Below, one piece after another: positions 9,001 to 52,927 of a stretch of DNA of 64,000 bases. Position numbers and translations under genes: made by a program. The notes below the pieces were generated by a model that saw nothing but the letters and a program-made list of their open reading frames with translations, did not search any database and was not told the DNA's origin. The stretch is from Ignavibacteria bacterium (GTDB taxonomy: Bacteria > Bacteroidota > Ignavibacteria > Kapaibacteriales > Kapaibacteriaceae): the NCBI GenBank assembly GCA_016191145.1, contig JACPPD010000006.1, forward strand, positions 1-64,000. The letters run 5' to 3'. The first letter of the stretch is position 1. Every line of letters starts with the position of its first letter.

Positions 9001-11425
9001 TTTGTGATCCGCTTAAGGCTTTGTATACAATAACGTCGGCCTGTGATTCAGTTCGATTAACATATAAATCGAAGGTTTTTATGCAACCTTCCATCTTAAC
9101 GTTATGGAGATACCCTGTTGAAAGTATCTTACCGGTCTGTGCAGTAGATATTTTCTTATCCGACGTTGTGGAGGTTAAAATTCCATCAATGACAAGCACC
9201 TGAGCGTTACCCACAGAAAGATCATTGTCGACAATGGTTTTACCATTATTATTTTTATAATCGGGTTCATTATTATACTTAATGCCACCCTTTTCAAGAA
9301 CTAACTCTGTGGCATTTTTATATTTTCCAAGATGTAAATATGTTTTCCCATTCAGAGAATGACCTTTCAGCCAGTCCAGATTATCACTTGATGTGTATTG
9401 GTATTTTGTATTTGTCAGACCGAGTAAGTTTGAACCTGGAATTGAATGGGCAAGACATCTGAATGCATTAACACGACCAAACCCAACTCTAATAGCCCAG
9501 TAGCGCTTAAGTGGATCATTTGACATCTCTCGATAGTCGGTGTTAAGTAGCGTTTGATTGGCATTCAACAAATCAGGCTGGAGGTCAGCTGTGAGCGGAT
9601 TTGGTGGGTAAAACTTCCGAGTCGCTGTCCTTTGACTACATATGAGATCAGCTAATTCTGAAGCTTCAGGAACTGGGTCTTCAGCGGTAGTATGAGCAAC
9701 TTCATAAGGAACACCAGGATCTGCGATCTTGTCGGCTGTGAAGGTTACGATGTCATAAACTCTGCGGTGTACATTCTTACCGGTTAAGCCAAACTTATCT
9801 TGAACTGACATCATGAGTCCAATGATCCCGCTCACTTGCGGTACAGCGTATGAATTACCGGATTCACTCGAGCTTGATTGACGATAATATCGTGATTTGA
9901 TGTCGGCGTCATAATATCTCGCATATAATCGTGGATATGGCGCCACAACATCAATTGTGGCTCTGAACTTGTCGCCCGCTCTTTCTTGCTGAGAGGATGA
10001 AATCGAGAATTTATTCGCTCCAAAAGAGAAGTTTGTGGAATTTCTAAGAAATAGTACACCCCTGTCAGCGGTCTTGCAATCTGGTAATATCACATCTGAG
10101 TTGCTCCCAATGTCATACCCCTTGACACACAGTACTTTTATATCATCGTTTGGATCGCTTGAATACGTGTATACATTACCTGCCGGAAGAGTTATGCTCG
10201 GAAAACCCATTTCTGCAGATACATTGATTGGGTTGTCGCTTTCTGAACACTGCGCAATATTTTCGGGGCGTGGTTCCTGATATTCATTTCCTAGTTCATC
10301 GTACGCAGAATATGAGAGCGAATTTGTCAAAGCCGCGGCTACAACAACACCGTTTTCAATTGCCGCCTTATATATATCAGGATCAGGAATTCCTCCTTCG
10401 TATGAAATAGACATCACATGAGGTGTCTGAATTCCCGGATTCGGTGAAACATCAACCTTAGAATAATCTGTGCCTCTGGCAGTCCCAAACACTCTGACCT
10501 GGGGAGCAACGCCGATCAGCCCCTTGCCATTTTCCTGTGATGCTATGATATTTAAAATTATGAAACCATGTCCGCTTGTACCGTCTGATTGCTTATAATC
10601 CTGTAGCTTAACAATCTGATTTGGAGGTGTCGGATAAAAATAATTTCCGGCCGGGTTTGATGTAGTAAGGGAAAGATCTTGGTGCTCCTGATGCGGTCCT
10701 GTATAGCCCGCATCGAAATTATCATCGACACCTACATATACGTTCTGACTTCCCTTCGTTATTTCCCATGCCATTGGTAAATGAAGATCATACAGTGACT
10801 TCTGCATTCCCAACTCATTGTACCTTTCTTCTCCGTCATAATCATAAGTATAACTTATACCCATTGGCGCTGCAACTTCACTCAATTTCTTTAATGGCAA
10901 CATACCAGGTTCAGTCGGTTCACCGAGCAGTTTCATCTGTCGATTAACATATCTAATGCCTGCGCTGTCGACGATAGGAAATAGCGTACTTTTAATACTA
11001 TCGATATTTACATAATTATTGAAGCTAACATAATACATTTTTATATACAGACTTGATGAATCCGTACATGTTGGGCATGCCTTTGTCAATTTCAAACCAC
11101 CATTAGCCGTATTCAGGCTATCCCAAATATCATAATAATTAACTGTTGTATCAAAGTCATCAATTGTATAAACACCATTTGAGTCAGCGACAGCTCCAGA
11201 TGATAAAATACCATAGGATACAATTATTTCAAATCTTCCCTTAGCATACCAGCTACCGGGAGAATTACATGTATCAATCATGATACTGTCGGGATTAAAC
11301 TGAGAGGTCTGAGGATTATGTGGATACTTCAAATACAAACATTGCGCCGATGTTCTCACTTCTTGTGAAAGAAATAATGCAACAGAAACACCGAGCATAG
11401 CGAAAAAAAACGGATTTGTCTTCAC
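6089..11425 (-). CDS. Subtilisin-like (S8) serine protease with beta-helix region and T9SS sorting domain
   Basis: 1778 residues from a GTG start preceded by GAGGTGAGAAG. Signal peptide at 1-28. The S8 triad can be located at Asp235 (VGVDDNFD), His286 (DGTSGHGF) and Ser525 (SGNSYAVPQVSG, a variant of the usual GTSMAxPxVSG). Residues ~680-1450 are rich in short repetitive strands (VVKRGATLRM, NGLLTVSPGS and similar), as expected for right-handed parallel beta-helix repeats. The last ~85 residues (YPNPSTGSFTIRYSG, then VYDLLGTTVYS) are a T9SS type A sorting domain. First gene of the locus, overlapping the next by four bases. Probably a surface or secreted protease with a carbohydrate- or protein-binding stalk. 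The many substitutions around the triad leave some doubt about activity. Confidence 0.85.
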   Translation of the reverse strand: MKTNPFFFAMLGVSVALFLSQEVRTSAQCLYLKYPHNPQTSQFNPDSIMIDTCNSPGSWYAKGRFEIIVSYGILSSGAVADSNGVYTIDDFDTTVNYYDIWDSLNTANGGLKLTKACPTCTDSSSLYIKMYYVSFNNYVNIDSIKSTLFPIVDSAGIRYVNRQMKLLGEPTEPGMLPLKKLSEVAAPMGISYTYDYDGEERYNELGMQKSLYDLHLPMAWEITKGSQNVYVGVDDNFDAGYTGPHQEHQDLSLTTSNPAGNYFYPTPPNQIVKLQDYKQSDGTSGHGFIILNIIASQENGKGLIGVAPQVRVFGTARGTDYSKVDVSPNPGIQTPHVMSISYEGGIPDPDIYKAAIENGVVVAAALTNSLSYSAYDELGNEYQEPRPENIAQCSESDNPINVSAEMGFPSITLPAGNVYTYSSDPNDDIKVLCVKGYDIGSNSDVILPDCKTADRGVLFLRNSTNFSFGANKFSISSSQQERAGDKFRATIDVVAPYPRLYARYYDADIKSRYYRQSSSSESGNSYAVPQVSGIIGLMMSVQDKFGLTGKNVHRRVYDIVTFTADKIADPGVPYEVAHTTAEDPVPEASELADLICSQRTATRKFYPPNPLTADLQPDLLNANQTLLNTDYREMSNDPLKRYWAIRVGFGRVNAFRCLAHSIPGSNLLGLTNTKYQYTSSDNLDWLKGHSLNGKTYLHLGKYKNATELVLEKGGIKYNNEPDYKNNNGKTIVDNDLSVGNAQVLVIDGILTSTTSDKKISTAQTGKILSTGYLHNVKMEGCIKTFDLYVNRTESQADVIVYKALSGSQTNGELHDAMWVRGNSTIVIESGTVTMMPGSTMYLYDGAKVVVKRGATLRMMHGSRILDMRTNNANDCIVLDVKQGAVNGGKLVIDAKAEEVVIDAELVINDGAKLEVGDAMTEIFPNVKVYKVIVKSGGKISTVDKSFIEKLDGNAPGLVIEASEGIRIPTNTTCKLNVPVEIKAGGSVMVDQFSTLKVGALNVRANGLLTVSPGSTLQFLDRENNVHGKLVIAGTSSSEAMKVTVKSAVEPNANCSTLNHVDFANLNILPEAWIYPNGAPTTDPLDQRLNFYLYAQYTKFENVFVTTLNTPILSLEGSTLVAGKLANCEFRTNRDVFTGNEIKEDYRKGTFFSSKWLKQPFRKQRDEFGGVSLFNYLSGMRLVRDLTVSNCSFTDVAGKIITSLNYRSLTREVNDYPVAGLSITGIGTYKVIENKFAFLFYGVNIEGPPSVVSGNKLGGLADGIIVRSAKVCDNDLSGCVNAITSRFNAYSFVFDNRIGAEMGSSVNSLISSGNEVKWVGSGLFINGEVLAFCRNNELSYYGTGLHAHSGTIDARDKFAFRTSMQTNQGDAYVNGRNLFVGSNRLSNPYRKGNEDADMFMGPTGLVNVKCGKNVFSAGNSLQRFQLQKEDQTPPVTIDVSTNEWTYDQVQLIRRNALVVIPPDVVDLRDGQHPYGTEQCSELTRELEVEFECVALPVEDGNPFDPNRALSTINPANFDVLSFVAGDILEGDTAFAKRAYPAALYILSNRGISVASRSASISVAIVAAEGHPQADSVVDELADTLKSIGLDTTQPKSLREKGILGRVDLLVFNEDYINAKGWLDTARITVFGGFDSIDVNLLSDWLGVMGDTAIGFVERRDTLNSLKTLEVEHAKRPDGFSKQPFQNDQLSERTEVSTTFVSYPNPSTGSFTIRYSGTAQKDVKISVYDLLGTTVYSLMLASLSTDDEIILPDLHSVDGTYVVELTSLTGRQASIITMMK

Positions 11426-22901: not shown

Positions 22902-24827
22902 TCAGGTTGCCAGTTCGCCACGGGCACGTTTGGAGTACTGACCGACCGTGGTTCGTTCGAACAATCCCGACTTCGATAGTAAGCGGTCGATGGTTCTTCC
23001 CGACATGCCGTATTCTTCACCGATTGAAACAGCTTCACTACGTTCAAAGCGCGACGGTAGGGCTTCGTACCACTGAAGAGTATTAGGGTGCTCTCGTCCC
23101 GACAATTGCGGTGAGTCTCGTGGTAGGTAAGACTGAAGGTGCTGCGCTGTGTCCAGTGAATATTTGGCAATAGCGGCAGCTGTTTCGCAATCACGGTCAT
23201 CGACAATCAGGCTGCAACCGACCATACCGCCCAGACTGTCACGCTTAGGGTTGCAAGCGAGATCCGCTGTGTTGTGCGCAACCGAACGCATGACCGTTAG
23301 TATTGAAGCGATCCTCGCAATGAGTACGCTACTTCGTCGCATCGTAGCAGTCATGTAGTCACCTTCGTCTTCAAGCAATAGATCTACTGACTGGAGGTCA
23401 CTGTACAAGCGTTCGCGTTGCGCTTCGGTGAAGAGTATCTCAATGCCATCCATCATTGCTGACTGTACTTCGTTTACGCGTCGAGTAACTGATGCAAAAC
23501 GCAATCCAACGGTTGCGCTTTTCCATTGGCTGTTGTCCCACGGATTTCGGAAGGATGAGCGAGACGTTAGAACATGAAAGGTGAAGCGCGAGACAAGACC
23601 GTTTTCACTTTGACGAAAAAAGGGTACTACCTGACCTGGCGTGCCACTTAAGCACATAGACAACTTGGGTGTTCGAATATCAATGTTGTTGTCGAGCTTA
23701 ACACGTGCGTATGACACATGCTCGTGACTCCAACATTGTCGAATCACTCCACTAAGGTCGAAGTAGTCTGAGCGCAATAGTGTTGCCGATACATCCGCTT
23801 CGCTCTCGTGAATAAGCAAAGACTTGTTCGATGCAAGTAGGTCAAGAATGACGGGCCCAGTGCTGTTACCTGCGGCAAATAAAGCAAGGGTAGGGGGCTT
23901 GGGTGGCAACAGAATATTCTTTTGTTTCCTGTTAGACAGAGCGGCCACTTCTGCTTCATACAACGCGAACAATTGTTTGGACTCGTCTACGCGCGAACGG
24001 TGTACGTCACGAACGAGATCCCTTCCAACATTGGCAAGCCCCTTGCCAGTTGCAGGTGGACCAACGATCATCAAGTTGAAGTTTGGATAGAATCTGCGAC
24101 CTCCTACCACAGTAAATATGTTATCGAGAACGGAACCAAGTGCAACGAGACAACTCAACAAGACTGTCAGTTGGTCTTGAGGTTCAATCTCTTCTGCAAC
24201 AATTTCTGCGATTGGAAAGGGAAGCTGGTTTAAATCAATAGCGGGATACACCAGTTTACGTTCAGCGCCCGTGTTCCACTCAGTTGCGGCTTCGACAGCA
24301 GCAAGCAATGAATCAATGGATCCACCAAGTTCTAAGAAGTCTGTGATGTCGCCCTTGAGTGGAAGGGTAGGCATCAGAACGCATAGATCGATGACCTTGA
24401 GTGACTTCGGATTCGCGAACTCCGCTAATGACCGCGCAACCTGTTTGATGTGATCGCGGCCGGGTTTGTCGTTGTCGCCAACCAAAACGAACGTACCACC
24501 GTACAGCATTTCGCTGTACACGTCTTTCCACTTCGTTGCACCGCCTGTGTTTGTCGTGGCGGTGCAACCATGTCTAACAAGAGATTCGACGTCTTTCTCA
24601 CCTTCAACGACAAACAATGGTCTGCTCTCTTCAACCGATTGCAGTGCTTCGCGTAGTCGATAGGGGATTAGATGCACACCGTCCATGTTGTATATCCAGC
24701 CATCGTTTTTGCATTGTGCTTGCAACACACGTTTTTCCTTCGGATCGGATCGATCAACAATCACTTTGTAGGAAGGATCTCCGTTTGTATCGCGGTAGAT
24801 ATACTCGCTTGTAGTTGAAGTAGTCAT
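22902..24827 (-). CDS. TOPRIM/DUF3987-type primase-helicase of a mobile element
   Basis: 641 residues. The N-terminal part (YIYRDTNGDPSYKVIV, PYRLREAL) leads into a TOPRIM fold (LFVVEGEKDVESL with the Glu, then FVLVGDNDKPGRDH with the DxD) typical of element-encoded primases. Residues ~195-520 form a DUF3987 helicase-like ATPase with a Walker A (VGPPATGKG). The C-terminal ~60 residues contain a second HTH-like segment (GEEYGMSGRTIDRLLS). Predicted to act at the element's replication origin. The start overlaps the stop of the zinc-finger gene by four bases, and the zinc domain usually fused to such proteins is in that separate ORF. Confidence 0.8.
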   Translation of the reverse strand: MTTSTTSEYIYRDTNGDPSYKVIVDRSDPKEKRVLQAQCKNDGWIYNMDGVHLIPYRLREALQSVEESRPLFVVEGEKDVESLVRHGCTATTNTGGATKWKDVYSEMLYGGTFVLVGDNDKPGRDHIKQVARSLAEFANPKSLKVIDLCVLMPTLPLKGDITDFLELGGSIDSLLAAVEAATEWNTGAERKLVYPAIDLNQLPFPIAEIVAEEIEPQDQLTVLLSCLVALGSVLDNIFTVVGGRRFYPNFNLMIVGPPATGKGLANVGRDLVRDVHRSRVDESKQLFALYEAEVAALSNRKQKNILLPPKPPTLALFAAGNSTGPVILDLLASNKSLLIHESEADVSATLLRSDYFDLSGVIRQCWSHEHVSYARVKLDNNIDIRTPKLSMCLSGTPGQVVPFFRQSENGLVSRFTFHVLTSRSSFRNPWDNSQWKSATVGLRFASVTRRVNEVQSAMMDGIEILFTEAQRERLYSDLQSVDLLLEDEGDYMTATMRRSSVLIARIASILTVMRSVAHNTADLACNPKRDSLGGMVGCSLIVDDRDCETAAAIAKYSLDTAQHLQSYLPRDSPQLSGREHPNTLQWYEALPSRFERSEAVSIGEEYGMSGRTIDRLLSKSGLFERTTVGQYSKRARGELAT

Positions 24828-25042
24828 CGCGTCTCCTCCTGTTCCCCAAATGGTGTGCTGTCACATTGCTGTGGCTTGCTTTCCTTCCGTGATCCCGGTT
24901 GAAAGAAACGTTGTTTGCAATACGTATCGTGGCATTTTCCACCTGAGTTGTATTCAGCGAGACGACAAAAGTTTTTACTGTGTCCACAAGGGCATATTGT
25001 TTTCTTGGTTTCAAAGACATAGCCGCACTTGATCTTCTTCAT
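24824..25042 (-). CDS. Small zinc-finger protein, split-off N-terminal domain of the primase
   Basis: 72 residues from the ATG at 25042, which overlaps the stop of the excisionase-like gene (ATGA). Six cysteines and two histidines are arranged as CPCGHSKNFC then GKCHDTYCKQRFFQPG. This is how the zinc-binding DNA-recognition domain at the front of DUF6371/CHC2-type primases looks. It is followed, again with a four-base overlap, by the TOPRIM protein that lacks such a domain. The natural reading is a primase divided into two co-translated subunits; a sequencing frameshift is unlikely because both junctions have proper ATGA overlaps. Confidence 0.7.
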   Translation of the reverse strand: MKKIKCGYVFETKKTICPCGHSKNFCRLAEYNSGGKCHDTYCKQRFFQPGSRKESKPQQCDSTPFGEQEETR

Positions 25043-25347
25043 TTCGCACTCCCTTGGGAGTTGCCGTTGCATATGCCAATCCAAGCCTCAAGTGCTTGAT
25101 GCGTGAACAACACGCGCCTTCCAACGTAGTTGGGCACGAGTTGACCGGATTTGACGGCTCGGTGTAGCGTTGCAATTGAAATGCGAAGGAGGGACGCTGC
25201 CTCCGCACGAGTTAAAAGTTCAGGGGACCTACTTTGCGGGGTTGATTTATGATCAAGTAGTTCAATGATCAATTCTTCAACGGCAGCAGCAACTATGTAG
25301 CGTAGGTCTTCTGGTGTGACCTCGTGGACAAGAACTTGAGTATGCAT
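25039..25347 (-). CDS. Excisionase-type helix-turn-helix protein
   Basis: 102 residues from the ATG at 25347 (AAGGTG upstream); longer in-frame starts lack a ribosome site. After a helical N-terminus, residues ~45-95 are a HTH_17 domain (LLTRAEAASLLRISIATLHR, then GQLVPNYVGRRVLFTHQAL). This is the fold shared by Xis proteins and many element-encoded control proteins. First gene of a three-gene overlapping operon with the zinc-finger and primase-helicase genes, so it may double as operon regulator. No integrase overlap here, unlike the HTH gene at 12.1 kb. Confidence 0.75.
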   Translation of the reverse strand: MHTQVLVHEVTPEDLRYIVAAAVEELIIELLDHKSTPQSRSPELLTRAEAASLLRISIATLHRAVKSGQLVPNYVGRRVLFTHQALEAWIGICNGNSQGSAK

Positions 25348-25528
25348 GACGCACCTTGATAGTGAATGAGAATGGTGCGATGCTATTGAGTTGTCAATTA
25401 CAGAAAACGCCAGCAATTGACAGTAAAGTCATATCGATATATGAATGGAATACAAAGGGTTATTGGTGAAAATGTATGCTGCTGTCATTTGCTGTTAACA
25501 ACTGCACACGAAATATTGAGAGTGAGTC

Positions 25529-26728
25529 TCATGTGTATGCAAGTTCAATGGCAGAGATCATGCTCAGGAGTGTCTCCATCTGAACATTTCCAGATACCGT
25601 ACCTCGTTTAAGAGATCTCTTTCTGGACTCGTCGTTCACTTTCTTGCCGTGATTGATGAGCTTGATTTGAAAAGGGTCCACGCCGAGTTTGAACGCAATC
25701 GCCTCTGCGATCTTTGATGCCCAGTAATTTCCGCTTGGTGCCTTAAGGCTAAGCCTGAGTTCGGTTTTACTGCAAAGTTTGATCAAATCGATTTTTGAGT
25801 TTGCACCTACTCGACCATGCGTGTGCAATGCTTCATACAACCATTCTCCGAATTCGTCTACAGTTCGGAGATTCGATTCGGTGGTAGCAAAGTCAGGCTG
25901 TTCAATTTTGTTCGCACGAAAGGCGGCTTGTTGTAATGTGAGCAATCTGACGAAGTGTTGCGATACGATCTGGTAGAAACCAAATTTCTCTAAGATTGAA
26001 CCTACAATTGCAGAAGGTACGTTGCGCATGAATGTCAGGTCGCCCAATGTTAATTTCTCCAACACTATATCGCGGTTTTCTTTCCATTTGATTGGGTCGA
26101 AGCACGTCGAAATCTTCGAAGGATCCGTAGACATATCAAACAGCACATAAATCAGTGAGGGTGCAAAGTATTTGTGACGTGCATGTTGCCTCGGCCAATT
26201 TTCTATCAAAGAGTTTTCGCTTCCGACTTGGTTGATAGCGTATTCGTTAATCGTCGGCAATAGAGCTCGCAATTTTTCATTCGACTCTACGTATCCTGCT
26301 ACTCTGTCTAAAATCTCATTTCTTACACTGTCCTCGATCCATGTCTCGAATATTTGACAAAACAGAACTACGTCGGAGTATGTTTTCGCTGACGCTTGGT
26401 TTTGGGTAACAAGAGTGGAAACAAAGTCTTTGAGTGGACTATCAAGTTCAACGTAACCTCGCTTGTCGTTAAGGAGCACAAACAAATTGTTCCGCTCAGA
26501 TAGCCAGTAGGATATGGGCTTACCATAATGCATCTCTCTTGATAGCTCGCCTTTGAGTGAACAATCATCCATATCCGCTGTCAGGTTTGCTTGCGCGTCG
26601 AGCACTTCAACACTCAATTTGTAAGCAGCTTCTTCGCGTGAACTTGCCTGGCGCAACTCCCTGAGAACGCGCCAGGCCATGTTGTGCGTAATTGATTTAG
26701 CAGTTAGTGTAACTATGTCCTGTATCAT
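25529..26728 (-). CDS. Integrase-coupled protein of unknown function
   Basis: 399 residues from the ATG at 26728, whose A is shared with the integrase stop (TAATG); an upstream start would overlap the integrase. Almost entirely helical by composition, no signal peptide, no motif I recognise. The last ~100 residues contain a conserved-looking block (KAPSGNYWASKIAEAIAFK, then DPFQIKLINHGKK) resembling RteC-like regulators of Bacteroidetes conjugative transposons, but the similarity is weak. Position and coupling match the HTH protein beside the other integrase, which suggests a role in integration, excision or element control. Confidence 0.6.
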   Translation of the reverse strand: MIQDIVTLTAKSITHNMAWRVLRELRQASSREEAAYKLSVEVLDAQANLTADMDDCSLKGELSREMHYGKPISYWLSERNNLFVLLNDKRGYVELDSPLKDFVSTLVTQNQASAKTYSDVVLFCQIFETWIEDSVRNEILDRVAGYVESNEKLRALLPTINEYAINQVGSENSLIENWPRQHARHKYFAPSLIYVLFDMSTDPSKISTCFDPIKWKENRDIVLEKLTLGDLTFMRNVPSAIVGSILEKFGFYQIVSQHFVRLLTLQQAAFRANKIEQPDFATTESNLRTVDEFGEWLYEALHTHGRVGANSKIDLIKLCSKTELRLSLKAPSGNYWASKIAEAIAFKLGVDPFQIKLINHGKKVNDESRKRSLKRGTVSGNVQMETLLSMISAIELAYT

Positions 26729-27987
26729 TACAGCTTCCCCCATGCTTTATATACCATTTCTCCCACCATTTCAGGTGTGATCTTTACATAGTGATTGTCC
26801 ATCACGTCACTTGTTTTGTGTCCAGTCACTTTGCGAATGATGCTCTCGCTCAATCCAAACTCAAGGCTTATTGTAACAAACGAGCGACGAGCAACGTGAG
26901 TCGTTAACTGGGTGTACTTCGGAACTGTTTGATCGAACCTCTTGCCACCACGATACTCGCTAATCGTTACGGGCGACTTCAATCCGACACGCTTACCCAG
27001 CTCCTTGAGATACTTGTTTGCTTTCACGCCACTGTTGAATTCAAACATGAGCGACGGATATCGCTTCAAAACCTCGAGCAACGGCCGTATAATCGGAATA
27101 ACTGTTCGGACCTCAGTCTTCTTCGCCGGTAAAACAATGAATCCATTTTCGAAGTCAAAGTGTTTAGGTTCAAGCGTAATAAGGTCGCCATATCTAAGCG
27201 CCGTGAACGTTTGAATCAGGAAGTGATCGCGTACGCGTGAAAGTTTGGAGCTGTCGGTTAAATCAGCATCTCGCAGCAATCGCAATTCTTTTGCGGATAG
27301 TGCTATGGTGTCTGCAACTGGATTGGGCTTATGGAAGATCTCGTATGTTCTGTTGTTATGCATCTTCCGATCTTTTGCCCACTTCATAAAAGTCTTTAGC
27401 ACCTTGATGTAGTTGCCAACGGCGGCGTCAGTAATGCCGCGATCTGAAGTGAGCCAACCCACAAATCGTCTGTAAAACTCTTCGTCGATTGAATCGAATG
27501 TCAGTTGCGTGCGGAACTTGTTAGCGTATTCTTCGAGCGTGTTCTTTACAAGGCGATAACGCTTCAACGAATATTCGGAAGGACGCTCGTTGGTGATCTG
27601 TCCTCTGCCATGAGAAAGCGTATACTTGTCGATGAACTTTGCAAAGGCAGGTAGCACCATTCCCTTCGCGTCTGCACCGTCTTCAAGGAATTGTCTGATC
27701 CGCTCATCGAACTTCTTGAGTTCCGCCGCGCTGACAACGTTGCCGTCAGCACCAAAGGAAAGTCCGTGATACGCTTGGTTAAGCTCAGAACGAATTGCAC
27801 CGAGCCTTTTCATTATTGCAAGATGGGTTGGTTCGGAGTTGCGCACCTCCTGAACGTAGTGGTTCCAGTCTTTGGGAACCAAGCTTACACCAGAACTATA
27901 GCGGTAGCGCTTGCCAGCTACAGCCACATTGATCATGAGCGAGGAGATCGGAGCTTGCTTCCGATCGATGTAAAAGGTGACCCTCAT
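26728..27987 (-). CDS. Tyrosine site-specific recombinase (integrase) next to tRNA-Arg
   Basis: 419 residues, colinear with the integrase at 13137-14402. The catalytic residues are all present: Arg265 (TALRYGD), His364-x-x-Arg367 (HVARRSF), His390 (GHKTSD) and Tyr400 (DNHYVK). The gene starts 188 bases from the 3' end of the tRNA-Arg, the classic position of an integrase after tRNA-targeted insertion. Its stop codon overlaps the start of the downstream unknown gene. Predicted to recombine the tRNA 3' end with the element's attP. Confidence 0.93.
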   Translation of the reverse strand: MRVTFYIDRKQAPISSLMINVAVAGKRYRYSSGVSLVPKDWNHYVQEVRNSEPTHLAIMKRLGAIRSELNQAYHGLSFGADGNVVSAAELKKFDERIRQFLEDGADAKGMVLPAFAKFIDKYTLSHGRGQITNERPSEYSLKRYRLVKNTLEEYANKFRTQLTFDSIDEEFYRRFVGWLTSDRGITDAAVGNYIKVLKTFMKWAKDRKMHNNRTYEIFHKPNPVADTIALSAKELRLLRDADLTDSSKLSRVRDHFLIQTFTALRYGDLITLEPKHFDFENGFIVLPAKKTEVRTVIPIIRPLLEVLKRYPSLMFEFNSGVKANKYLKELGKRVGLKSPVTISEYRGGKRFDQTVPKYTQLTTHVARRSFVTISLEFGLSESIIRKVTGHKTSDVMDNHYVKITPEMVGEMVYKAWGKL

Positions 27988-29766: not shown

Positions 29767-29840
29767 GTCACAAAATACGAATGAGGCTCATGCGTAGATT
29801 GCCGAACCCCCAGGAAGAAGAGAGTTTCAAGGAAGGAACG

Positions 29841-31118
29841 ATGTTTCATAAATGTCTCGTTGTTGGAGTGGCGCTCGCGATGCTGACGCTAGCTGGTATC
29901 CAGTCGGCAGTGGCGCAGAAAATGCTTATCCCGATGGATCTCACGCAGACCAACCACCTCAAGGCGTATGGCATTGCCTTTATGGTGCTGACAAAGGATA
30001 TGCCGGTAGACTGGCTGCTTAATTATCGTGGTGGGTCGTTTATGATGGACTACATAAAAGACATTGCCACTGAATGTAGGGTAAGGGGCGTGTTGTTCGA
30101 AGAAGTCGATGGCGCAACTGCGGCAACAATCTATTCGCAGGTTCAGGCAGAGGGTAGCAACACCGAAGTTGTCCGGTTGGAAAAAGCTCCGCGTATTGCC
30201 GTATACGCCCCGCCGGGGTTCAGACCATGGGACGATGCAGTGACGCTCGCAATGGAATATGCCGAAGTAAAGTACGACAAACTCTGGGATGAAGAAGTTT
30301 TACAAGGTAAACTTGCTGAATATGATTGGCTGCACCTTCATCACGAAGATTTTACGGGTCAGTACGGGAAATTTTATGCCTCGGCAGCCGGACAAACCTG
30401 GTATGTGCAACAGGTGGCATTATTGGAAAGCACGGCAAAAAAACTTGGCTATAAAAAAGTATCGGATCTTAAACACGCAGTAGTACAAAAAATTAGAGAA
30501 TACGTTATCAATGGCGGCTTCATGTTTGCAATGTGCAGCGCAACCGATACATACGACATTGCCCTTGCAACGGAGAACACGGACATTTGCGATGTTGTAT
30601 ATGATTACGATCCGGCAGATCAGGACGCCAATTCAAAACTCGATTTCTCCCAGACATTTGCGTTCGAGAATTTCACCGTGTCGCTTAATCCATTCGAATA
30701 TGAATACAGCGATATCGATATCGATGCAAACCTGCTTCTGGCTAACGAAAAAAGTGATTTCTTCACCCTCTTTGATTTCTCCGCCAAATATGATCCGGTA
30801 CCAACTATGCTTACTCAGTGCCACGTAAATGTTCTGCGCGGCTTCCTGGGGCAGACCACTGCCTTCAAAAAAAATCTCATCAAAAAGTCTGTCACAATAT
30901 TGGCAGAACGCGACGGCACAGATCAGGTCAGGTACATCCATGGTAATGTGGGAAGGGGCACGTTTACGTGGTATGGAGGCCACGATCCCGAAGATTACCG
31001 TCATGCCGTAGGCGATCCCCCCACCGACCTCACCCTACACCCCAATTCACCTGGATACCGCCTTATCCTCAACAATATTCTGTTCCCTGCTGCAAAAAAA
31101 AAGAAGCAGAAAACGTAA
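29841..31118 (+). CDS. Conserved secreted protein (family often labelled 'asparagine synthetase B')
   Basis: 425 residues from the ATG at 29841, preceded by AAGGAAGG. Signal peptide 1-25 (ending AVAQ). The sequence ILIPMDLTQTNHLKAYG-type opening, VDWLLNYRGGSFMMDY, IAVYAPPGFRPWDDAVTLA and YDWLHLHHEDFTGQYGKF is strongly conserved in a Bacteroidetes/Chlorobi family that databases often name asparagine synthetase B. I see neither an N-terminal nucleophile Cys glutaminase domain nor the synthetase P-loop, so that name looks wrong. The fold resembles periplasmic glutamine-amidotransferase-like proteins, but function is unknown. The C-terminus ends in a Lys-rich tail. Confidence 0.7.
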   Translation: MFHKCLVVGVALAMLTLAGIQSAVAQKMLIPMDLTQTNHLKAYGIAFMVLTKDMPVDWLLNYRGGSFMMDYIKDIATECRVRGVLFEEVDGATAATIYSQVQAEGSNTEVVRLEKAPRIAVYAPPGFRPWDDAVTLAMEYAEVKYDKLWDEEVLQGKLAEYDWLHLHHEDFTGQYGKFYASAAGQTWYVQQVALLESTAKKLGYKKVSDLKHAVVQKIREYVINGGFMFAMCSATDTYDIALATENTDICDVVYDYDPADQDANSKLDFSQTFAFENFTVSLNPFEYEYSDIDIDANLLLANEKSDFFTLFDFSAKYDPVPTMLTQCHVNVLRGFLGQTTAFKKNLIKKSVTILAERDGTDQVRYIHGNVGRGTFTWYGGHDPEDYRHAVGDPPTDLTLHPNSPGYRLILNNILFPAAKKKKQKT

Positions 31119-31135
31119 TCGTAGTGCCGGGGTAT

Positions 31136-31484
31136 TAGTTCATAGTTCATAGTTCATAGTTCATAGTTCATAGTTCATAGTTCATAGTTCATAGTTCAGG
31201 GTTCAGGGTTCAGGGTTCAGGGTTCAGGGTTCATAGTTCAGAGTTCAGGGTTCGGGGTTCAGGGTTCAGAGTTCAGAGTTCAGAGTTCAGAGTTCATAGT
31301 TCAGAGTTCAGAGTTCATAGTTCATAGTTCATAGTTCATAGTTCATAGTTCATAGTTCATAGTTCATAGTTCATAGTTCATAGTTCATAGTTCATAGTTC
31401 AGGGTTCAGGGTTCGGGGTTCAGAGTTCAGGGTTCGGGGTTCGGGGTTCGGGGTTCAGAGTTCAGGGTTCAGGGTTCATAGTTC
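31136..31484. repeat. Left heptanucleotide tandem array (GTTCATA / GTTCAGG / GTTCAGA)
   Basis: About 50 direct repeats of a 7-base unit GTTCANN, with blocks of GTTCATA, GTTCAGG, GTTCAGA and GTTCGGG. The phase is kept throughout. It is the inverse complement of the array at 31919-32121 on the other side of the S23-type gene. Confidence 0.97.
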
Positions 31485-31492
31485 CAAGTAAT

Positions 31493-31855
31493 CTAGATTT
31501 TATATTTTTTTGAAATTGATAATCCATATTTAACGATCATGGGTAAAAGTTCGGAGACTTCGCTCTTCAGGCTCTCATATTCATCGTCGGTAAGCAATTT
31601 TCGGTGAAAGGCTAGGTCGAGGTGAGTAGATACCTCCATTAGCGAAGCTCTAGCATACATGACAAATTTTCGATTTTCCGCACCTGAATATCTTCCATAT
31701 CCTTCCGCTAAGTTCGCTGGTACAGCATCCGCAGCCCTGATCAGTTGCTTGCCTAACGTATCAAGATCAAAAAATGACCAAGTTCGGATTATCGCATAAA
31801 TCCTTGTGGCGAATGCGATTGATAGTTGATGAATAGTAAGATCTTCTAGCCTCAT
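31493..31855 (-). CDS. Four-helix-bundle protein (S23/IVP family)
   Basis: 120 residues. The motif set LTIHQLSIAFATRIYAI, LGKQLIRAADAVPANLAEGY, ENRKFVMYARASLMEVSTHL and LLPMIVKYGLSISKK is that of the four helix bundle family first described as products of 23S rRNA intervening sequences; the same fold is used by the Avd accessory protein of diversity-generating retroelements. Here it is free-standing, not inside rRNA, and enclosed by two long inverted heptanucleotide arrays. The ATG has GGGGATAAG upstream. No reverse transcriptase lies nearby. Function unknown, possibly nucleic-acid binding. Confidence 0.85.
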   Translation of the reverse strand: MRLEDLTIHQLSIAFATRIYAIIRTWSFFDLDTLGKQLIRAADAVPANLAEGYGRYSGAENRKFVMYARASLMEVSTHLDLAFHRKLLTDDEYESLKSEVSELLPMIVKYGLSISKKYKI

Positions 31856-31918
31856 GAACTTATCCCCATCTACTCAATGCATGTGGCTCCTCCCTCCTCA
31901 ATCGTGACATCTGTAGGC

Positions 31919-32121
31919 GAACCCTGAACCCTGAACCCTGAACTATGAACCCTGAACCCTGAACTATGAACCCTGAACCCTGAACCCTGAACCCTGAACC
32001 CCGAACCCTGAACCCTGAACCCCGAACCCTGAACCCTGAACTATGAACCCTGAACCTTGAACCCTGAACCCCGAACTATGAACCCCGAACTATGAACTAT
32101 GGACCCCGAACCCTGAACCCC
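31919..32121. repeat. Right heptanucleotide tandem array (GAACCCT / GAACTAT / GAACCCC)
   Basis: About 29 direct repeats of the 7-base unit GAACNNN in the opposite orientation to the left array, so that the two could pair as long imperfect inverted repeats around the S23-type gene. Unit variants (CCT, TAT, CCC, CTT) mirror those on the left. Confidence 0.97.
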
Positions 32122-32189: not shown

Positions 32190-33878
32190 ATGTCGAACAT
32201 GGCGAATGTCAATCGACGGTGTTCTTTGACAATTGCAGCGTTCTTACTTTTCTCGTGTCATGGCCAAAAGCCAGCGACACACGATAACTTAAACACGTTC
32301 ACGTACAACGAGCCGGACGGGCTTCTGAGCCTGGACCCGGCAGTGGCTACCTATCAGGCAGCTACGTGGACAACCCTGCACCTGTTTAATGGACTTGTCG
32401 AACTCGACTCTGCGCTTGGCATAGCCCCCTCCATAGCAAAATCCTGGAGTGTTGATGATAAGGGGCTTATATGGACCTTCCATCTGAGGCGCGACGTTTG
32501 GTTCCACGAGGACGATTGTTTCGGTTCAAAGCGTACGCGCCGTGTAACGGCAAACGATGTGCGCTTCAGTATCGAGCGGATTTGCGATGCCAGGACGAAA
32601 TCGACCGGACTATGGGCATTTCGTACGCGTATCGACGGCGCCGATGAATTCCATCAAAACACACGCAAGGGTATCAGCGGACATATTCGGGGAATCACTG
32701 TTGATGATGATTCCACTATAAGGATACGGCTGACAAAACCTTTTGCTCCCTTTCTGGCAGTTCTCACAATGCCATACGGTTCGATCATTCCAGTGGAAGC
32801 GATCCAAACGTATGAAGCCGACTTTGGACGACATCCCGTGGGTACGGGCCCGTTCGCCTTCGGATACTGGAAGCCAGATGTTGAGCTTCGTTTGTCCCGA
32901 AATCCCATGTATTGGAAAACGGATGACAGTGGTGGTTCTCTTCCTTATTTAAAGGAAATTAGGATCACGTTTCTCCGCGATTCTAAAAACGAATTCCTTG
33001 AATTTACCCGCAAGCGGTACGATATGGTGGCGTCGGTCGACGTAACCCTGTCATCTGCCGTTTTCAACCCCGATGGTACACTAAAAGCCCCCTACGATAA
33101 ATTTATTTCGTATCGGGCAGCATCGCACTCTGTGGAGTATTACGGCATTCTCATGTCGGGTATGGCAGAGTCGGTGCTCACTAAAGACAAGCGGATACGT
33201 CAGGCACTTAACTATGCCATCGATCGGCATCGGATTGTAGCCTACGTCCTCAATGGTAGAGGCATTCCAGCAACACACGGAGTGCTTCCGCCAACCCTTC
33301 CCGGTTTTTCGGAGTCTGTGCAAGGCTATCGGTTCGACTCCGATGAAGCGCGGCGTTTGCTGGCACAGGCAGGCTACCCGAATGGGAAGGGGCTTCCTAC
33401 ACTGATTTTACAAATGGGGAATAGTCCGCGCACGGCTAGTGTAGCCGAAGCCGTGCAGCAGATGTGGCGAGAGATAGGCGTTAGCGTTGAACTCCGTCAG
33501 GTTGATTTTCCCCAGCACCTTGCAATGGTTCGAGCCGGAGAACTGCCGATGTGGAGAACTTCGTGGATAGGCGATTATCCGGATCCAGAGAACTTCCTTG
33601 CATTGTTTATAACAGAAAATGTTTCGCCTCGGGGTCCGAACACCACACGGATCAGTAGGGCAGACCTCGACTCTTTGTACGAGAAGGCGCTGGATCCGCG
33701 CCTTCCATTTGCCGACAGAGCTTCCTTGTACAATGCTATGGAGCGCATCATACTCGACGAAGCTCCGTGGATTTTCCTCTACCACGATGTACTGGTCAGA
33801 CTCGTTCAGCCAAATGTAAAAGGATTTACTATCGATGGATCGGGGAGACTGATGCTGGAACGCGTGTGGAAAGAGTGA
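32190..33878 (+). CDS. Peptide/nickel-type ABC transporter substrate-binding lipoprotein
   Basis: 562 residues. Signal II with lipobox LLFSC near residue 20, then the SBP_bac_5 (OppA/DppA) fold. Markers are GLLSLDPAVATYQAATWTTL with HLFNGLVELD, APSIAKSWSVDDKGLIWTF, FHLRRDVWFHE, TANDVRFSIER, the HPVGTGPFAFGYW block and KRIRQALNYAIDRHRIV. It would bind oligopeptides or a similar solute in the periplasm and deliver it to an inner-membrane permease. No permease or ATPase gene is adjacent, so it either works with a transporter encoded elsewhere or has another role. Confidence 0.9.
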   Translation: MSNMANVNRRCSLTIAAFLLFSCHGQKPATHDNLNTFTYNEPDGLLSLDPAVATYQAATWTTLHLFNGLVELDSALGIAPSIAKSWSVDDKGLIWTFHLRRDVWFHEDDCFGSKRTRRVTANDVRFSIERICDARTKSTGLWAFRTRIDGADEFHQNTRKGISGHIRGITVDDDSTIRIRLTKPFAPFLAVLTMPYGSIIPVEAIQTYEADFGRHPVGTGPFAFGYWKPDVELRLSRNPMYWKTDDSGGSLPYLKEIRITFLRDSKNEFLEFTRKRYDMVASVDVTLSSAVFNPDGTLKAPYDKFISYRAASHSVEYYGILMSGMAESVLTKDKRIRQALNYAIDRHRIVAYVLNGRGIPATHGVLPPTLPGFSESVQGYRFDSDEARRLLAQAGYPNGKGLPTLILQMGNSPRTASVAEAVQQMWREIGVSVELRQVDFPQHLAMVRAGELPMWRTSWIGDYPDPENFLALFITENVSPRGPNTTRISRADLDSLYEKALDPRLPFADRASLYNAMERIILDEAPWIFLYHDVLVRLVQPNVKGFTIDGSGRLMLERVWKE

Positions 33879-33879
33879 A

Positions 33880-34036
33880 ATCCACAAATCCACAAATCCA
33901 GAAAACAGGAAATCCAGAAGTCAGGAAATCCAGAAATACAGAAGCACCATAACATCCATCGAAACTCAGCACAATCACTCAGCACAATCACTCAGCACAA
34001 GCACTCAACACAAGCACTTAGCACAATCACTCAACA
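33880..34036. repeat. Two short degenerate tandem repeats between genes
   Basis: 33880-33940 is a degenerate 9-10-base repeat around AAATCCAGA; 33961-34036 repeats ACTCAGCACAATC-like units of 12-13 bases about six times. They fill the space between the binding protein and the NlpC/P60 gene. No hairpin or gene is seen in them. Confidence 0.75.
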
Positions 34037-34054
34037 CATTTTGAAAGGTTTGTA

Positions 34055-47429: not shown

Positions 47430-47520
47430 CCCGGTCAATCACCCGGTCAATCACCCGGTCATTCACCCGGTCATTCACCCGGTCAATCACCCGGTCATTC
47501 ACCGGGTGATTGACCGGGTG
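47430..47520. repeat. 12-bp tandem repeat ACCGGGTGAWTG, with orientation switch
   Basis: Six units of CCCGGTCAATCA/CCCGGTCATTCA followed by about two units in the opposite orientation (CCGGGTGATTGA), so the array can fold on itself. It fills the gap between the divergent cytochrome and pntAA genes. The same unit recurs at 52880-52927. Confidence 0.95.
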
Positions 47521-47555
47521 AAGTTAGAAGGAATGCACATACTTAGTTTTGCAAA

Positions 47556-52861: not shown

Positions 52862-52879
52862 AGCAATTGGTTCAGATTC

Positions 52880-52927
52880 ACCCGGTGAATGACCGGGTGA
52901 ATGACCGGGTGATTGACCGGGTGATTG
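52880..52927. repeat. 12-bp tandem repeat ACCGGGTGAWTG, second locus
   Basis: Four units (ACCCGGTGAATG, ACCGGGTGAATG, then two ACCGGGTGATTG) just after the metX stop. Same unit as the array at 47430-47520, about 5.4 kb away. Confidence 0.95.

Follow-up and report, generated by a model that had tools for sequence, protein, structure and literature searches.

S23 genes between hairpin arms outside rRNA: probable elements of the intervening-sequence type in several phyla

Introduction

We know of no function for S23 proteins or for their rRNA intervening sequences (IVS). In REP/RAYT systems and non-autonomous hairpin repeats, a small protein gene between inverted repeats is accompanied by dispersed non-coding copies with common ends.

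In Coxiella burnetii, an S23 open reading frame (ORF) lies in a 28-bp stem in helix 45 of the 23S rRNA, and the IVS is 428 nt long in total (PMC4990558, in excerpt). Two or three tandem GACAGAT heptamers, whose number varies among strains, precede the S23 start codon, and the IVS is cleaved by RNase III in vitro. In the excerpted text, the authors regard the function and origin of the element as unclear and hold that no S23 protein is made.

Short tandem heptamers are also found in other settings. The TAACTGA heptamers of the Beggiatoaceae are tandem, intergenic and near start codons, and they occur in some Bacteroidetes and Cyanobacteria as well (PMC4679880); a term search of the main text of that paper found no mention of S23. 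MacGregor (2015, in excerpt), citing a survey, reports that heptanucleotide repeats are the commonest class in most genomes, with polymerase slippage as the proposed source. Our literature search, in which few subscription journals were covered, returned no account of inverted heptad arms at S23 genes outside rRNA. Here we describe such a locus and compare it with other S23 genes.

Results

An S23 gene between inverted heptad arrays

The window is a stretch of 64,000 nucleotides at the start of contig JACPPD010000006.1 (assembly GCA_016191145.1), from an Ignavibacteria bacterium in the family Kapaibacteriaceae. The unit and its neighbours are as follows, in window coordinates:

29781..31118, plus strand: flanking host gene without a Pfam family; 20 of the 23 genomes of the GTDB family have a match to it
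31126..31137, plus strand: host sequence GCCGGGGTATTA, right after which the left array begins (by eye)
31138-32120, about 983 bp: the whole unit (arms and S23 gene)
31138..31484, plus strand: left arm, a tandem array of about 50 GTTC(A/G)NN heptads (TRF, unit counts)
31493..31855, minus strand: S23-family gene, 120 aa, four-helix bundle (PF05635, TIGR02436, AlphaFold)
31903..31909, minus strand: TGTCACG, just inside the upstream arm
31919..32120, minus strand: right arm, a tandem array of 28-29 heptads in inverted orientation to the left arm (TRF, unit counts, pairing, fold)
32190..33878, plus strand: host neighbour on the other side, of solute-binding protein family 5 (PF00496)

On the sense strand of the S23 gene, which is the minus strand, the right arm is the upstream, G-rich arm and the left arm is the downstream, C-rich arm. 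TRF places period-7 repeats at 31137-31484 (49.7 copies) and 31919-32120 (28.9 copies), and direct counting gives 50 copies of GTTC in the left arm and 28 of GAAC in the right. An earlier note, made from the letters of this DNA, had described inverted heptad arrays around an S23-type gene and had called them unlike the rest of the window. The counts and the PF05635 match of the gene between the arrays bear out the first statement; as for the second, elsewhere in the window neither GTTC nor GAAC recurs in phase every 7 nt for more than two units.

The note's proposal that the arms could pair also holds. The best alignment between the left and right arms covers 237 bp, and the minus-strand RNA of the unit has a predicted folding energy of -448.7 kcal/mol, versus -272.6 kcal/mol (standard deviation 6.6) in 20 shuffles. 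The unit variants are GTTCATA, GTTCAGG, GTTCAGA and GTTCGGG. Most types are present in both arms, so the claim that the variants match on both sides stands for the kinds of unit; it fails for their order, as 130 of 300 shuffles reached the observed token score. Neither arm is therefore a block copy of the other, and we ruled out that relationship.

Like the 23S rRNA IVS as excerpted, the unit has an S23 ORF within stem-forming inverted repeats, heptamers near the S23 start and a sporadic distribution. Unlike the IVS, it lies between protein-coding ORFs and not inside a 23S rRNA gene, and its arms are 200-350 bp long instead of a 28-bp stem with 2-3 heptamers. An Rfam scan of the fetched stretch around the unit found no rRNA. 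Like the TAACTGA repeats, the arms are tandem heptamers in an intergenic region; unlike the arms, the TAACTGA repeats are direct repeats of 2-6 copies of one fixed word (main text of PMC4679880). Classical insertion sequences and MITEs have a target-site duplication beside their inverted ends, and we found none at the window's unit: the longest word common to both flanks is 5 nt. Unlike REP/RAYT systems, the unit has no Y1 transposase domain, and its ends are tandem arrays whose word varies by locus.

The same host site was compared in other genomes. In G002, the two host neighbours adjoin, with neither array nor S23 gene. In G008 and G001, arrays of other words begin just past a GCCGGGGTATTA-like sequence, downstream of the same host gene (by eye), with no S23 gene in the part read. 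In G021, the same host gene is followed by a different S23 gene, whose word is 10 nt long.

Other features of the window are recorded here as observations in their own right. Tandem arrays of the 8-nt GAAATCCA and the 13-nt ACTCAGCACAATC occupy 33877-34038, at the end of the solute-binding protein gene and immediately beyond it. At 47430-47530, an array of the 12-nt word CCCGGTCAWTCA directly adjoins mirrored copies of itself and forms an S23-less hairpin; a single inverted array of CCCGGTCAWTCA lies 5.3 kb away, at 52875-52927. Toprim/primase-type, small helix-turn-helix and tyrosine recombinase-like ORFs are clustered at 22902-27987 (by eye), which is perhaps an integrated island.

The S23 protein

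The S23 protein of the window matches PF05635 (E = 1.3e-27; 96.5 bits, with a curated cut-off of 33.8) and TIGR02436 (E = 2.9e-26; 91.8 bits, with a cut-off of 24). PF05635 was the only Pfam match of the gene: it has no recognisable catalytic domain and no Y1 (HUH) transposase domain. The AlphaFold model is a four-helix bundle (pLDDT 97), and its best matches among solved structures are the S23 proteins 2gsc and 2rld (TM 0.91 and rmsd 1.0 for 2gsc_B). A weaker match is Avd of the diversity-generating retroelements (DGRs), 4dwl, with Foldseek probability 1.00, TM 0.78 and 9% identity; since its E-value is 0.03, we regard it as a match in fold only. The model also matches the DGR reverse-transcriptase complexes 8ub7 and 8ube.

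Across 15 close pairs of S23 genes, dN/dS is 0.00-0.10, so the S23 protein is kept by purifying selection. This differs from the Coxiella IVS, for which its authors hold that no protein is made (PMC4990558, in excerpt). In a tree of S23 proteins, insertion sites are clustered (14 changes versus a shuffled mean of 32.5); the tree is poorly resolved, with 67 of 142 inner branches open, and we do not use it to argue that insertion was repeated. S23 ORFs shorter than 90 aa, along with duplicate loci, were left out of the tree, the neighbour-orientation and mismatch counts, and the wider polarity and motif counts below.

GTTCA arrays without S23

The window's genome (G000) has a single PF05635 match. 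GTTCANN arrays occur at five further places in it (C3, C5, C8 and twice in C7), all without S23. At four of these (C3, C8 and both places in C7), the arrays accompany copies of a single non-coding repeat, the core, which is about 335 bp long: three core copies have arms on both sides, and the fourth has a GTTCA array on the right only. C5 has a single array without the core. Among the 23 genomes of the GTDB family, the core is found in this genome only. We ruled out that it is a decayed S23 gene (best E = 0.34 to S23), and it matches no Rfam family. The correspondence in unit order between the arms of the non-coding copies is weak at most, with the observed value reached by 25 of 300 shuffles at C3, 58 at the first C7 copy and 19 at C8. 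Short GTGCCA/TGGCAC-like words are seen at the ends of the core (L010, L012 and L072, on C3, C7 and C8). Separately, L012 has a TPP riboswitch above the gathering score at 9834-9931, on the minus strand.

Arrays of at least five GTTCA units were found in 15 of 296 sampled genomes. We examined all 22 loci listed for the 14 genomes besides the window's own; some of these genomes have more. None of the 22 listed loci has an S23 gene nearby within the fetched stretches, and an inverted partner lies within 600 bp at 5 of them, while 17 are single. Heptad arrays are therefore common on their own. What accompanies S23 is the mirrored pair of arrays, and not the heptad array as such. The earlier note had expected GTTCAGG/GAACCCT arrays to go with S23 genes, and that link to a particular word did not survive: words differ between S23 loci, and the GTTCA arrays elsewhere lack S23, which rules out GTTCAGG as a generally recognised word.

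Complementary arms at other S23 genes

PF05635 was found in 14 of the 23 genomes of the window's GTDB family, with more than 50 matches, of which 30 loci were surveyed for arms. When the upstream flank was compared with the reverse complement of the downstream flank of the same gene, 24 of the 30 loci scored at least 36, and at 19 of 30 the gene's own arms were the best in the row. The periods include 7, 8, 10, 11, 12, 16 and 18, along with others, and the words differ at most loci. The remaining six (L013, L016, L024, L025, L027 and L030) scored below 36, yet L016 has a 12-nt array by TRF.

In the sample of the phylum, 234 of 296 genomes have PF05635, often in several copies. Among the 29 top-scoring loci added to the survey from this sample, arms are shorter and more degenerate, and 9 scored at least 36. 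We then compared S23 genes with other genes across 20 stretches, each 19.9 kb long. An arm score of at least 30 was reached at 11 of 18 S23 ORFs and at 7 of 308 other ORFs. With a score based on shuffling (z > 3), the counts were 11 of 18 and 16 of 271, the latter being ORFs more than 900 bp from any S23 gene. Inverted complementary arms are thus about ten times as frequent at S23 genes as at other ORFs.

For named genomes, we took one genome per species and the best 80 S23 loci, four of which were dropped for short flanks. Of the remaining 76, 53 had z > 3 and 23 had z of 3 or less; at 45 loci, no shuffle of 200 reached the observed value. High values outside Bacteroidota include L169 and L179 (Chloroflexota), L186 and L212 (Acidobacteria), L187 (Thiobacillus), L190 (Desulfosarcina) and L202 (Clostridiales), and L175, L189 and L203 show none. 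Since many of the named records are bins from metagenomes, individual phylum labels may be in error. Rfam gave zero matches in the fetched stretches of the 80 loci; none of them therefore shows a 23S rRNA. The results point to hairpin-armed S23 elements, probably of the IVS type and outside rRNA, in several phyla.

The earlier note had suggested that arrays might flank S23 genes more often than chance, and the comparison with other ORFs and the named loci agree with that for inverted arrays in general. It had also said what would speak against it, namely arrays and S23 genes that occur apart with no co-occurrence. Arrays without S23 do exist; the conclusion that the two do not co-occur fails.

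Pairing, period and polarity of the arms

At 68 non-redundant S23 loci, RNA duplexes between a gene's own arms average -83.8 kcal/mol, versus -53.9 for mispaired arms, and 0 of 20,000 permutations reach this, in a test that leaves base composition within genomes uncontrolled; the shuffle tests, and the swap of arms at one site described below, are better in that respect. The mean for 426 control ORFs is -50.3, and 17 of the 68 S23 loci lie beyond the 5% point of the controls. Period 7 stands at 0.496 in S23 arms versus 0.391 in controls, with an echo at 14 and little at other periods. Mismatch counts within the arms, with 79 G-U (53.6 expected) and 66 A-C (53.1 expected), do not tell pairing in RNA from pairing in DNA.

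The arms have a fixed polarity relative to the gene. On the sense strand of S23, 61 of the 68 loci have a G-rich upstream arm and 60 a C-rich downstream arm. In a wider set, the corresponding counts are 23 and 25 of 28 for the window's family, and 99 of 121 and 96 of 119 for other families.

Orientation relative to the host genes was counted on a single locus from each site cluster. Of the 71 clusters outside the window's family, 62 could be called: S23 shares the direction of both neighbours in 52, has mixed neighbours in 8 and opposes both in 2. Within the window's family, the 24 clusters comprise 3 in which it shares the direction of both (++), 10 with mixed neighbours (8 +- and 2 -+) and 7 in which it opposes both (--), with 4 that have no call. 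The S23 gene of the window itself, on the minus strand, is opposed to both of its plus-strand neighbours. Because S23 is not co-directional with its neighbours in this family, an argument from co-transcription is weaker for the window's copy.

In the window's GTDB family, 21 of 28 S23 genes, which encode strongly diverged proteins, have GTCAC(G/A) just inside the upstream arm. None of 121 S23 loci from other families has TGTCAC(G/A). TGTCACG occurs 4 times in the window, versus 10.8 expected, and so it is no general promoter there; it may be a special one.

Presence, absence and movement

A gene that resembles acetyl-CoA acetyltransferase (named from its sequence) is matched in 88 of 92 genomes of one family, and we read the junction upstream of it at the best 30 loci. 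Twelve have an S23 gene (at one, L123, the reading frame is split in two pieces), eight have a period-7 hairpin without S23, and ten have neither. Two of the S23-less hairpins are weak: 3 of 60 shuffles reach the value of L129, and 2 of 60 that of L136. Both states are found within a single genus (g88). At ten of the S23-bearing loci, a gene's own arms pair at -27.2 versus -19.6 when swapped among loci, and 4 of 20,000 permutations reach this. The word therefore varies among relatives while the pairing is kept.

The opposite case, in which the word is constant and the site changes, is seen at L142, L143 and L144, from two Flavobacterium records and one Flavobacteriales bin. Their S23 proteins are 86-91% identical and their arms have the same word. 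The flanks have no detectable similarity in the comparisons that were possible (the downstream flank of L142 is too short). Near-identical S23 genes with one word at three unrelated sites imply that the gene and its arms travel together. The suggestion of the earlier note that the unit is a cassette agrees with both results: presence or absence at one site within a genus, and the same gene and word at three sites.

Some observations concern the sites. At the thiolase site, the host start codon may have been copied into the far arm at a few loci (by eye). At a junction of the fadB-fadA type (names from sequence), 21 loci that carry S23 genes cluster by the homology of their flanks, and their arm words vary; this junction is a hot spot. 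Examples are L143, from Flavobacterium fluvii DSM 19978, and L184, L206 and L094. A plasmid route to empty sites gave distant matches only, and we dropped it.

Discussion

Two properties of these loci are observed directly. First, an S23 gene and its arms behave as a unit, which recurs at different sites with an unchanged word and which orthologous sites may have or lack. Second, each pair of arms keeps its complementarity as the word changes between loci; what is conserved is mostly the period of 7, and not the sequence. We give a probability of roughly 55% to the following reading, including its proposed working: 31138-32120 is a small S23 hairpin element, mobile or formerly mobile, with the S23 gene in the loop of a stem whose two arms repeat one short word in opposite directions; it has the architecture of an IVS but lies between protein genes, outside rRNA.

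The working that we propose is modelled in part on the rRNA IVS. The arms would grow and shrink by slippage, and a requirement for pairing would hold both sides to one word. Once transcribed, the stem may fold, and the insert would then be either bridged or excised by RNase III in the manner of the rRNA IVS. Bridging or excision would make an insertion tolerable between co-transcribed genes. The S23 protein may bind this stem, as such or as RNA, and could thereby protect the element or spread it; its four-helix fold is common to pentameric members of the family and to Avd, which is bound to RNA and reverse transcriptase in DGRs. Arrays without S23 that have the same word in the same genome would be satellites.

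A more sweeping version of this reading is tentative. In it, S23 genes would mark a large and so far unnoticed group of mobile hairpin elements. Form, and not sequence, would define their ends: any short word would serve if tandemly repeated and mirrored, and an S23 oligomer would read the periodic stem. The ribosomal IVS, the inserts at operon junctions, the S23-less hairpins and the non-coding cores of the window's genome would all be members, and such elements would rewrite their own ends in place.

We think it unlikely that the unit works at the level of DNA, as an inverted-repeat element in which S23 recognises double-stranded or cruciform arm ends and moves both the element and S23-less satellites in trans, much like RAYT and REP. 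In its favour, the sole S23 gene of the window's genome has the GTTCA word in common with five S23-less array loci, four of which surround one core of about 335 bp, three with both arms. Also, S23-less periodic hairpins in two other stretches carry the word of the local S23 gene (by eye), and the direction of S23 genes in the window's family does not follow that of their neighbours. Against this stand the lack of a recognisable catalytic domain in S23 (PF05635 only) and the lack of a target-site duplication at the window's unit, together with the strong co-direction with operons outside the window's family. In addition, three S23 genes in one genome (L019, L028 and L039 in G012) each have a different word, so there is no genome-wide rule of action in trans.

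Less probable still is that these are ordinary slippage heptads and chance hairpins, with S23 genes that tolerate or prefer such places and with arms and pairing that have no function. Such arrays do arise on their own, as the 15 of 296 genomes with GTTCA arrays and the 22 listed loci without S23 (17 without an inverted partner) attest, and the survey cited by MacGregor (2015, in excerpt) ranks heptanucleotide repeats as the commonest class in most genomes. S23-less hairpins and arrays also occur at the same sites as S23 genes. But chance would not explain why inverted complementary arms are about ten times commoner at S23 genes than at other ORFs, why they follow the gene to new sites, why complementarity is kept at one site while the word changes, or why the polarity of the arms is fixed relative to S23.

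Finally, it is very improbable that S23 works like Avd, with a reverse transcriptase in trans and arm arrays made by its slippage: the fold matches to Avd and to the complexes 8ub7 and 8ube favour this, but the window's genome, unlike a DGR, has no reverse transcriptase by our search (no match to RVT_1, PF00078, which was matched in 3 of 14 control genomes), and this weakens the route.

If S23 genes mark hairpin elements outside rRNA, then the binding target of S23, the cutting of the stem and the tolerance of the insert all become testable. Several named species with S23 loci were found in the culturable genera Flavobacterium, Chryseobacterium and Pedobacter. Pairing that is kept while the word changes would also represent a novel form of concerted change in sequence.
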